A stretch of DNA of 23,267 bases from a virus, in IMG/VR virus record IMGVR_UViG_3300048929_000125, positions 1 to 23,267 of that record; one strand, given 5' to 3'. The translations under genes were made by a program, and so were the position numbers. This document shows, piece by piece, positions 3,816 through 7,578 of this stretch; position 1 is the first letter of the stretch, and every line of letters starts with the position of its first letter. The notes under the pieces are model-generated. The model did no database searches and was not told the DNA's origin. It was given only the letters and a program-made list of their open reading frames with translations.

Positions 3816-4166
3816 TTAACTCAGTGGGATAGTGAGGGAAAAAGGCTGGTTTGAGTTGGTGCGCGTGCCGGTAATATCGACATACAGCGCGCCGTCATCC
3901 TCACCGCGCTCAAAGGTGATGGTCGACAGACTGACGCGTGGCTCCCACTTCTGGATCGCCGAGTAGCACGCGGCCATAATCTGCAGCCGCAGCGCCGGGG
4001 TCTGCGGCTGGTCAATCAGCGCTGACAGCAGCGAGCCATATTCACGGCGCATCACACGCGAACCAACCGGCGTGACCAGAATGTCGCGCACGCTCTGCCT
4101 GATATGGTCGGCCTCAGAAATACTGAGCCCGGTGTGGCTGTTCATACCTAAATAACGCACCGTCAT
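3816..4166 (-). CDS. W: Baseplate wedge protein W (gp25-like)
   Basis: A protein of 116 aa (P2 gpW about 115 aa) of the T4 gp25 / GPW family. The characteristic region is SISEADHIRQSVRDILVTPV followed by GSRVMRREYGS (about 36-46), where the family's conserved EYG lies. It is a core piece of the baseplate wedge. Its ATG overlaps the V stop codon (ATGA), which indicates coupled translation. Confidence 0.95.
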   Translation of the reverse strand: MTVRYLGMNSHTGLSISEADHIRQSVRDILVTPVGSRVMRREYGSLLSALIDQPQTPALRLQIMAACYSAIQKWEPRVSLSTITFERGEDDGALYVDITGTRTNSNQPFSLTIPLS

Positions 4167-4804
4167 TTCGTCCCCTCCGTTCTGCTACCGCCGCGTTCTA
4201 CTCCGCCGTGGTCGTGGTCATCCACCTGCACGCCGTTCGAGGTCAGTTTCCCGCCGCTGTGCTCGATATTTCCTTTCATCGTCCCGCCCTTCTGCACTTC
4301 GAGTGAGCCGGTGATGAGCTTGTTAGTGCACACCACTTCTGGGGTATCGAGCGTGATGCGGGTTTCAGCTTTGACCAGCACCACCGGCACAGTGGCGGTA
4401 AGGGATTCCGACGCGGTGACGTCGGCGGTTTTGATACCGGACACGGTGAGCGCCCCGCTGTCGGGTTCGTACTCGATAACCGCCCCGTCGGGAAAGGCAA
4501 TGTGAAGCGCATCAGGCGAGGCAGACGGCGCGGGATTGTCATCAGAGAAAATGGAGGGCAGCACAAACGCGGTGTCGAGTTCGCCACCGATGGCAAGAAT
4601 CAGCACCTGCTCGCCAACGGAAGGAGCCCACCACACACGCGAGCGACCGGCGCGGGAGGTCAGCCAGTTAAGCCAGGTGGTTTGCATCCCGCCGGTCTGG
4701 ACGCGACAGAGCCCAGCATCGTGATCGACGTCGGTCACGATGCCGGTACGGATAAGGTTGCGCATAGCGCGAGCGATATCCTGAAGTGAATTTAATGTGT
4801 TCAT
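4163..4804 (-). CDS. V: Tail spike / baseplate hub protein V
   Basis: A protein of 213 aa (P2 gpV about 211 aa). Residues 15-90 form the OB-fold part shared with T4 gp5 (VQTGGMQTTWLNWLT). Residues 100-190 are the repeat-rich beta-helix. The C-terminal tip has DDHDHGG with H197 and H199, the H-x-H motif that binds iron at the membrane-piercing apex of P2-type spikes. The gene is first in the tail operon. No strong Shine-Dalgarno sequence is seen before the ATG at 4804 (upstream bases read ATTCTACCTCC), which is odd for an abundant late gene. Directly upstream begins the AT-rich foreign island. Confidence 0.94.
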   Translation of the reverse strand: MNTLNSLQDIARAMRNLIRTGIVTDVDHDAGLCRVQTGGMQTTWLNWLTSRAGRSRVWWAPSVGEQVLILAIGGELDTAFVLPSIFSDDNPAPSASPDALHIAFPDGAVIEYEPDSGALTVSGIKTADVTASESLTATVPVVLVKAETRITLDTPEVVCTNKLITGSLEVQKGGTMKGNIEHSGGKLTSNGVQVDDHDHGGVERGGSRTEGTK

Positions 4805-5109: not shown

Positions 5110-5143
5110 AGCGGACGGTGATGTCGCCTACTCCGCTCTTTTC
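5110..5143 (+). terminator. Hairpin followed by a short T tract
   Basis: On the plus strand AGCGGA (5110-5115) pairs with TCCGCT (5132-5137), with an inner GGTG/CGCC stem and ATGT loop, followed by CTTTTC. This has the shape of a Rho-independent terminator for plus-strand transcription, but I see no plus-strand gene before it. Read on the minus strand, the same bases follow an ATG and a 5-codon frame. It may be a structured part of an unknown RNA. Confidence 0.4.
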
Positions 5144-5225
5144 ATTAAATTAAACCCAGCCCTCCAGAATAATTATTACAATAATAAATGCTTGAAAGTT
5201 AGAAAAATATGATCATGAAATTAAA

Positions 5226-5332
5226 ATCGTGGTGCCGGGTGCCTCCCGGTGCTTCTTTGCCAGACCAAAGAAGCGCGAGCATATCGCAAAGGTGTCTGGT
5301 TCGACCCGCCGCATAGGGGGATTCACCACACC
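5226..5332 (-). ncRNA. Structured small RNA, possibly C4 / P4 CI-type antisense RNA
   Basis: The minus strand reads GGUGUGGUGAAUCCCCCUAU from the predicted start at about 5332. Stems seen: GUGGUG (5329-5324) with CACCAC (5234-5229) closes the whole molecule; CCGGG with CCCGG (5249-5235) forms a 5-bp hairpin; GCUUCUUUG with CAAAGAAGC (5274-5251) forms a perfect 9-bp hairpin. The 6-base loop of the last hairpin (GUCUGG) is exactly complementary to upstream CCAGAC (5299-5294), so a pseudoknot or a switch between two folds is possible. The C-rich AUCCCCCUAU near the 5' end is the kind of segment that pairs with ribosome binding sites. The pattern reminds me of the C4/CI phage antisense RNAs, but that family assignment is from memory. 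The 3' end is uncertain. Confidence 0.55.
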
Positions 5333-5336
5333 TAGA

Positions 5337-5365
5337 AAAATAGAAAACAGTCTCACGTGAGTCAA
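5337..5365 (-). promoter_or_regulatory. Strong sigma-70 promoter with palindromic operator for the 5226-5332 RNA
   Basis: On the minus strand TTGACT (5365-5360), a 17-bp spacer, and TATTTT (5342-5337) make a close match to the sigma-70 consensus. The 10-bp perfect palindrome CTCACGTGAG (5352-5361) sits in the spacer and touches the -35 box, as an operator would. The start is predicted near 5332-5330. Confidence 0.6.
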
Positions 5366-5528
5366 GTTTTTTTAGCAGACATGTGTTTTTTCATGATCCC
5401 ATGATCACAATAAAGAAATTTTGTGTCAGCTATGCTTATACCAAACGAAAAAGCATGCTTTTGTCACACCAGCTTAGTTTATATTTCCAACATTAATTGA
5501 CAATCATTATCTGACCTGCATGAAAACG

Positions 5529-5560
5529 CAAAAAAAAGTCCATCAATAAATTGACAGACT
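5529..5560 (-). terminator. Rho-independent terminator of the 5530-5609 RNA
   Basis: On the minus strand AGTCTGTCAAT, loop TT, ATTGATGGACT pair over 11 positions (two as G-U), followed by seven more T residues. This is a textbook intrinsic terminator facing left. Confidence 0.75.
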
Positions 5561-5609
5561 TCTGAAATATCAGAAAAGGTGCTTACCAACCATTTACTTC
5601 AGATGAAGT
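5530..5609 (-). ncRNA. Compact small RNA candidate with its own promoter and terminator
   Basis: A predicted minus-strand RNA of about 80 nt with three stem-loops in a row: AUUUACUUC/GAAGUAAAU (9 bp, 4-base loop, 5613-5592), UUCUGA/UCAGAA (5575-5560), and a terminator hairpin with a U tract (5560-5530). No open frame of useful length is present. The layout (promoter, 5' hairpin, short single-stranded part GGUUGGUAAGCACC, U-tailed terminator) is that of a trans-acting bacterial sRNA of the Hfq-binding kind. The 5' hairpin lies partly at the predicted start, so it could be an operator instead. Target and function are unknown. Confidence 0.55.
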
Positions 5610-5615
5610 AAATTT

Positions 5616-5645
5616 AGCATAGCACCACTTATGAGAAACGTACAA
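5616..5645 (-). promoter_or_regulatory. Promoter of the 5530-5609 RNA
   Basis: On the minus strand TTGTAC (5645-5640), an 18-bp spacer, and TATGCT (5621-5616) preceded by TG (extended -10). The 22-base inverted repeat 5592-5613 begins just after the -10 box, so it may also be a regulator binding site. Confidence 0.5.
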
Positions 5646-5932
5646 GTTTTTAGTATTCATTACCTATAGAACCAATAGAATGCTTACCATGCGTCTATGA
5701 TAAAACACATGGAACCACTCAGTAAGGACCTGCTTAACCACACAAAACTGCTTCAACTCTATTTAAATCAATAAACTCCAGCTTAAAATAGAGAATATAT
5801 GAATACGTTCTCCATAACTCACTTCAGTTTTCTTAGAATCAACTGTTCAATGAGAAACTTTTCTTGCATATCGAACACGAGTAACTTGCGTTCTGGGTAT
5901 TGCACATTTACTGCCACCAAACCTTGAATAGC

Positions 5933-6101: not shown

Positions 6102-6893
6102 CTAACGGATAATTCCACGTGTTGAGTGCTGGAAAAACCATTCGAATAGTTCGCCAACAGGATGCTTATTTAACCTCTCTTTTAACATAACCTTCGCTTC
6201 ATGTAACGATAGTGATTTATTGTAAAGTATATCGTAACAACCTTTTGTTAAGCTCTGATCGCTCTGACCCGACCCGGTGAAATATCTGGATGTGGTGTCT
6301 ATTCCATTGGGTTCAGCATAGTTACCGCTAGCATAAACAAATGGGGGAATATCCTGAGTTACACCTGAGTGATGCCCAACATTTGCATATGCACCTAATA
6401 CACAGAATTGATGGATTGCGCACATGAACCCGACCACAGCACCATCACCCAGTGCAACATGTCCTGCCAGGCCGCTGTTATCACCAATGTGCGTACTATT
6501 ACCAATGATGCAGTCATGCCCAATGTGAACGTTATTCAGGAGGGTATTATCGTCACCTATTATAGTGTAATTATTATCTTGCGCCGTGCCTCGATGGATT
6601 GTTGCATTGTTACCAATATTGTTACGACTCCCTATAATTAGCCTGGTTGACTCATTTTTATATTTTAGATCTTGATTCACTTCACCTATCGATGAAAACT
6701 GCCCAATCTGATTATCACACCCGATAACTGTAAATCCATTAATAACTGAATGGGACCCTATAATAGTTCCCTCACCAATAACAACATCCGCAGAAATAAT
6801 ACAAAATGGACCGATATTGACATGTGCCTCGATCACTGCGCCTGGTGCTATGATACTGCTACTCGAAACGCGTGCAGTAGAAGAGATCGTCAT
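6102..6893 (-). CDS. LpxA-like UDP-N-acetylglucosamine O-acyltransferase (moron gene)
   Basis: A protein of 263 aa, one longer than E. coli LpxA and alignable along its whole length (IGPFC, SIGEVNQDLKY, TIHRGT, HDC, IHQFC, final STRGIIR). Residues 1-190 are the hexapeptide-repeat left-handed beta-helix; the rest is the helical C-terminal domain. LpxA transfers a hydroxyacyl chain from acyl carrier protein to UDP-GlcNAc, the first step of lipid A synthesis. The catalytic base (H126, LpxA H125) and H123, H145, H161, K77, Q74 and D75 are kept. The acyl-chain ruler G173 is replaced by His174, H191 by Tyr192, and the GLKRRGF segment with R204/R205 is missing. A shorter acyl chain or a different sugar substrate is therefore likely. 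AGGA lies 8 bases before the ATG. The gene is AT-rich, stands alone and is oriented with the late genes; I infer a role in changing the lysogen's surface. Confidence 0.85.
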   Translation of the reverse strand: MTISSTARVSSSSIIAPGAVIEAHVNIGPFCIISADVVIGEGTIIGSHSVINGFTVIGCDNQIGQFSSIGEVNQDLKYKNESTRLIIGSRNNIGNNATIHRGTAQDNNYTIIGDDNTLLNNVHIGHDCIIGNSTHIGDNSGLAGHVALGDGAVVGFMCAIHQFCVLGAYANVGHHSGVTQDIPPFVYASGNYAEPNGIDTTSRYFTGSGQSDQSLTKGCYDILYNKSLSLHEAKVMLKERLNKHPVGELFEWFFQHSTRGIIR

Positions 6894-7113: not shown

Positions 7114-7578
7114 TTATTCAAAGGCTGAACTATCCCCAAGGTAATCAACTATCAGCTCCTCAATATATTTTTTATCAGCACGACTAAATCCCAGCAACTC
7201 ACGCTGTGGATACTGAACATCCTGACTATTAGGGGTTGGCCTGTCTTTAAGTCCGTACTGATGGATCTGCACGATACGTTGCACCTTACCGGTAAACTGC
7301 ACCACAGCAGTATCATTGCGGCCACGGGCTTTCATGTAGCGGCTGGTTCGCAGCTTCTGAAACATCGCCCTTTTAATACGCCCTTTTTTTGCCCTGATCG
7401 GCTGACGCTTTCGCGCCTGATACGGCGTGCCATCCGGGGCTTTTTGCAGTTTAATCCGTTGCTGTTGCGATTTTCGCAGCTCTTTCGCAATCGCAGCAGC
7501 AAGCTTTCGCCGCCCCGCCGGTGACAGCGCCCCAATCAGCCCGGCGAGCTTATCGTCAAAAGGCTTAAACTCATTCAT
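7114..7578 (-). CDS. S: Tail completion protein S
   Basis: A protein of 154 aa (P2 gpS about 150 aa) of the phage virion morphogenesis / tail completion family. It is basic in the first 90 residues (KELRKSQQQRIKLQK, QPIRAKKGRIKRAMF) and ends with the family's QYGLKDRP and YPQRELLGFS motifs. With R it finishes the tail before head joining. Its start overlaps the end of R by 8 bases. It is the last gene of the O-to-S operon; 7113 to 6894, between it and the acyltransferase gene, holds no gene and no promoter I can defend. The C-terminal residues (DSSAFE) lie next to the AT-rich island and may have been changed by its insertion. Confidence 0.93.
   Translation of the reverse strand: MNEFKPFDDKLAGLIGALSPAGRRKLAAAIAKELRKSQQQRIKLQKAPDGTPYQARKRQPIRAKKGRIKRAMFQKLRTSRYMKARGRNDTAVVQFTGKVQRIVQIHQYGLKDRPTPNSQDVQYPQRELLGFSRADKKYIEELIVDYLGDSSAFE

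Follow-up and report, generated by a model that had tools for sequence, protein, structure and literature searches.

A predicted, conserved small RNA gene family next to STnc100 in the S–V region of P2-like phages

Much work has been done on the prophage small RNAs (sRNAs) of lambdoid phages; on sRNAs of P2-like phages, we found little in the literature searched. Among the closest described systems, STnc100 has been linked to other prophage sRNAs (PMC13192938), and paired sRNAs occur at a lambdoid moron site (PMC4104026). DicF and other Hfq sRNAs of cryptic prophages are small prophage RNAs thought to target host mRNAs (PMC5069750).

Here we analysed a window of 23,267 bases, the viral record of a P2-like phage, in which a compact non-coding unit occupies the minus strand from 5645 to 5530 in the S–V region. 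About 1.3 kb between the LpxA gene and V holds no convincing protein gene. The first-pass annotation had proposed an unannotated sRNA gene of ~80 nt with its own promoter and terminator. These parts are present in the window and conserved in its relatives, and from sequence comparison we conclude that the unit represents a real family of sRNA genes in P2-like phages, conserved and so far without annotation. The features of the locus are as follows.

7114..7578, minus strand: P2 tail completion gene S (TIGR01635)
6102..6893, minus strand: LpxA-like acyltransferase moron, upstream of the unit (TIGR01852, 236.5 bits; cut-off 231.05)
5640..5645, minus strand: weak -35-like hexamer TTGTAC (3/6), 18-nt spacer to the -10; from sequence, with conservation reaching ~5654
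5616..5624, minus strand: extended -10, TGC-TATGCT; from sequence, with TGCTA..CT invariant in 7 homologues
5530..5609, minus strand: predicted 80-nt sRNA; from fold z-score, homologues and covariance models, with transcription predicted
5596..5609, minus strand: 5′ hairpin ACUUC-AUCU-GAAGU; conserved pairs start at the predicted +1
5580..5589, minus strand: UUGGUAAGCA, the most conserved single-stranded segment and candidate seed; from conservation
5563..5574, minus strand: second hairpin CUGAUAUUUCAG; from folding, only in the window's clade
5530..5563, minus strand: intrinsic terminator, 10–11 bp stem (5563–5534) and U8 (5537–5530)
5180..5359, minus strand: STnc100 sRNA (Rfam RF02076), downstream of the new sRNA (55.1 bits; gathering score 47)
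4163..4804, minus strand: P2 baseplate gene V (TIGR01644)

Related loci were gathered by V and LpxA queries. Conservation provides the chief evidence for the unit. Multiple alignment reveals two conserved islands in the S–V spacer, at ~5655–5531 and ~5340–5221, and local blastn finds this two-patch likeness, at ~5654–5530 and 5331–5224, in five diverged P2-like contigs (L010, L042, L058, L061 and L067); L008, which is more closely related, gives a blastn alignment of 917 nt with 81% identity. In the multiple alignment, the first patch is 50–86% identical to clade 2 (20-nt steps, 5660–5521) and the second mostly 72–99%, with the DNA between them at 16–50%. Related viral contigs carry the unit together with its promoter, six of them aligning at 69–80% identity within a diverged spacer, and a DNA pattern scan located it in 12 viral contigs, several of them new. 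When 775 kb were searched with a covariance model built from the distant clade only (R2), the copy in the window was recovered with E = 2e-10 and 58.6 bits, and one significant forward copy was found in each carrier record searched whole. Random drift at promoter and stems, named by the first-pass annotation as a refuting outcome, is the opposite of what these relatives display: promoter, hairpin and terminator are all conserved. Weak covariance matches in L122 and L022 were set aside, as they comprised the terminator only or lay within apparent coding sequence.

Neither clade's element gave a blastn match in 5,426 complete E. coli genomes, nor in 50,697 phage records besides chance matches in Staphylococcus phages and STnc100 itself. 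A DNA pattern search of genome contigs returned no match, and no significant model match was obtained in 80 genome-derived P2 loci. The genomes of 392 Enterobacteriaceae species, searched under strict filters and with no positive control among them, likewise gave none. Rfam holds no family for the element (positions 5480–5720, even at E = 5), besides one meaningless weak match. The nearest named DNA to the carrier phages is that of Enterobacter phage ENT4 and of E. coli prophages, at ~85%.

The candidate promoter reads TTGTAC-N18-TATGCT on the minus strand, with TGC immediately 5′ of the -10. Because the -35 is poor and the promoter was absent from the output of a generic consensus promoter scan, evidence from this single sequence alone would not settle the assignment. 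The -10 differs between relatives, reading TAAGCT in L008 and TACCCT in L042. The predicted +1 is A5609 on the minus strand. In the 5′ hairpin, the five pairs inside this start are formed in 35 of 35 alignment cells, whereas the three that lie outside are formed in 10 of 21, and this pattern of pairing conserved from +1 inward fits a start at 5609. A longer hairpin is also possible in the window, with the -10 in its 5′ arm, and would need a start farther upstream; the longer stem is not conserved and occurs mainly in the window's clade. We consider it likely that an RNA is made from the unit's own promoter.

Folding of a nearly identical 80-nt stretch is more stable than that of dinucleotide shuffles (z = -3.8, with 0 of 200 as stable), and the 116-nt stretch gives z = -6.4 on the same comparison. 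Two hairpins had been proposed ahead of the terminator. The 5′ hairpin is conserved, but the second is confined to the window's own clade; it is absent from clade 2, which carries CUAAUUUUUCAA. The proposed intrinsic terminator with a long U tract is present as described, with its 10–11 bp stem and U8, and keeps 95.8% of its pairs across clades. It shows a single compensatory change (U-A to C-G) and two wobble changes, a modest covariation that does not clearly exceed that of shuffles. Between the 5′ hairpin and the terminator, UGGUUGGUAAGCACC is largely unpaired in the window fold, and a U-rich stretch, CUAAUUUUUC or ACCUUUUCUG, precedes the terminator stem. The Hfq class is characterised by a Rho-independent terminator ending in 7 or more U and preceded by a U-rich stretch, and the window and its relatives, with their U8 tail, share this feature. 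The layout resembles that of a base-pairing sRNA of this type, which would probably bind Hfq.

UUGGUAAGCA is the best conserved segment. The centroid folds of the window and L061 leave most of it unpaired, but it is paired in an alternative fold of the clade-2 variants L058, L067 and L042, which would sequester the seed. The 9-mer TGGTAAGCA from this seed occurs twice on the minus strand of the window, at 5681–5689 (upstream of the promoter) and at 5580–5588, with no further exact copies there; the upstream copy is also found in L008.

Downstream, the known sRNA STnc100 lies at 5359–5180 and had been missed by the first-pass annotation. It follows the new sRNA in every adequately covered copy checked (six other carriers and the truncated L018), and the V loci with an STnc100 blastn match are the V loci with the new sRNA, with the exception of one cut-off contig. 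Pairing between the two RNAs is predicted to be no better than with shuffles. At six other STnc100 loci in phages and E. coli prophages, STnc100 sits near holin and lysis genes, mostly just past a Q-type gene, and the new sRNA is absent at all six loci inspected. Elsewhere in the spacer, a Fur box-like GATAATGATTGTCAATTA (~5510–5493) was dropped, as it is not conserved in L008. On the plus strand, 5110–5137 contains an inverted repeat, AGCGGA...TCCGCT, followed by CTTTT and conserved in L008, which is possibly a terminator or a plus-strand RNA.

The coding neighbour of the unit varies between phages: LpxA upstream in the window, none in L008, and a MASE4-GGDEF gene downstream in L010, L042 and L061. 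Since this neighbour differs, the earlier suggestion that the RNA regulates the neighbouring moron finds no backing, and the variation speaks against a control function dedicated to that moron. The LpxA moron passes the NCBI equivalog cut-off, and four further viral contigs carry an LpxA moron. LpxA is the first enzyme of lipid A synthesis, and the moron could change lipid A in the lysogen. The other moron, a 456-aa MASE4-GGDEF diguanylate cyclase between STnc100 and V (L010 2227–3597, L042 1933–3303, L061 2231–3601), looks disrupted or truncated in L058 and L067.

Across 127 loci, the S–V gap is ~69 nt in roughly 40 and 0.7–3.9 kb in most others, and a terminator-like site lies within 400 nt of S in only 18. 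These gap sizes and the few terminators near S indicate that S–V is a cargo site and that the S operon does not have this terminator as a constant component; the new sRNA and STnc100 are cargo of this moron hotspot. In L010 and L061, the S–V junction and first V codons occur twice, once at V and once where the cargo begins on its left side. These copies lie at 1349–1440 and 3975–4015 in L010, and in the same region of L061. The duplicated junction reads as a trace of cargo entry.

In a rival account, the S (or lpxA) transcript merely ends here: the unit would be its terminator and 3′ untranslated region, from which a 3′-UTR-derived RNA might be processed. The unit does begin ~70 nt past the S stop codon in L008, and a terminator is among its conserved pieces. 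However, an intrinsic terminator after S is missing from most P2-like relatives, which shows that the unit's terminator is not simply a late-operon terminator; the LpxA moron separates the unit from S in the window; and the -10 region and the 5′ hairpin from +1 are conserved as well. We therefore judge this account unlikely.

The best explanation, to which we assign a probability of roughly 0.7, is a base-pairing, probably Hfq-type sRNA for lysogenic conversion, carried as cargo. For its transcription, its timing, its use of Hfq and its class of target, we infer the following. The sRNA gene would be moron cargo at the S–V site in a subfamily of P2-like phages, and host RNA polymerase would start near 5609 from the extended -10 promoter. 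No Ogr-type TGT-N12-ACA site lies nearby or upstream of the unit, and because an obvious late-activator site of this kind is lacking, the RNA is expected to be produced in the lysogen. It would be ~80 nt long, with the hairpin at its 5′ end, UUGGUAAGCA exposed as the seed and, after a U-rich linker, the intrinsic terminator with U8, and would base-pair with host RNAs via the seed, probably with the involvement of Hfq.

No consistent target emerged across phage sequences, Enterobacter pattern matches and 20 E. coli K-12 sRNAs. The start regions of two long relatives share no common match as phage-internal targets, and among the K-12 sRNAs GlmZ and RyhB lead, unconvincingly. The 11-nt seed complement, searched in 8 Enterobacter genomes, gave no start-codon-proximal sense match in the 30 loci inspected, a narrow test. 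The porin and envelope mRNAs suggested earlier as targets thus receive no support from these 30 loci.

An alternative role is that of an anti-sRNA, or sponge, whose seed UGGUAAGCAAC would copy the translation start of sdhD and so titrate RyhB. The sdhD mRNA is a RyhB target. Over 11 nt, clade-2 seeds show complete identity to an Enterobacter host sequence (L190, L202, L211 and L212) that looks like the sdhD translation start, and they pair with the RyhB core at p = 0.006–0.023 (uncorrected, with 20 host sRNAs tried). AgvB, which acts in this way on GcvB, and AsxR offer a precedent (PMC4104026). In contrast, clade-1 seeds, that of the window included, do not surpass shuffles in pairing with the RyhB core (p = 0.23 and 0.55), nor was RyhB prominent among 20 host sRNAs in a whole-RNA test (uncorrected). 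A sponge is thus very unlikely and serves as no more than a lead; about as unlikely is the wider scenario in which the phage RNA, as a decoy copying the sdhD start, titrates RyhB and rewires the iron homeostasis of the lysogen, forming a two-sRNA control cassette with STnc100.

The unit had also been described as free of open frames. A 7-codon ATG frame does run from 5593 to 5570 on the minus strand of the window, and neither its ATG nor its length is conserved. Translation of this frame as a tiny gene or leader peptide (MVGKHLF-like) would agree with the GAAG just upstream of the ATG in the window and several relatives, but the ATG becomes ATC in L008 and GTG in L042, and the frame, only 7 codons long in the window, extends as far as the terminator in clade 2, leaving this reading highly improbable. 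Equally improbable is a DNA element, such as a protein-binding or recombination site, for although the cargo is inserted at S–V and has a junction copy at its left end in L010 and L061, that copy lies outside the unit, and conservation within the unit follows the logic of an RNA, with a hairpin from +1, a seed and a terminator with U8.

The base-pairing sRNA proposed here adds a small, conserved, unannotated and undescribed family to the P2-like phages. It also places STnc100 outside the lambdoid lysis region, upstream of V in a P2-like phage and in tandem with a second sRNA, and marks the S–V site as a place where RNA genes move as cargo. With a seed this short and conserved, the question of targets is open to direct testing.

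Compared with known systems, the new sRNA shares with DicF the setting of a small prophage RNA and has no sequence relation to it in Rfam. Like PasA and PasC (PMC13192938), it is a prophage sRNA that co-occurs with STnc100. The Pas genes occur in E. coli genomes, and an indirect comparison with PasA, PasB and PasC, by blastn of both clades' elements against the 5,426 examined genomes, gave no match. STnc100 itself (PasD; RF02076; PMC13192938) is likewise a phage-borne intergenic sRNA of Enterobacteriaceae, but the new element matches neither its sequence nor the RF02076 model, and is ~80 nt long against a model of 206 positions; in lambdoid phages, STnc100 is located close to Q and the lysis genes, and the new sRNA is not beside it. 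AgvB and AsxR (RF02702 and RF02703; PMC4104026) are likewise short prophage sRNAs, paired at a moron insertion site and with possible mimicry of host mRNAs. The Rfam covariance models of AgvB, AsxR and Esr41 do not match the element. AgvB and AsxR are 51–60 nt long and form convergent pairs in lambdoid phages, whereas the new sRNA is ~80 nt long and stands in tandem with STnc100 in P2-like phages.
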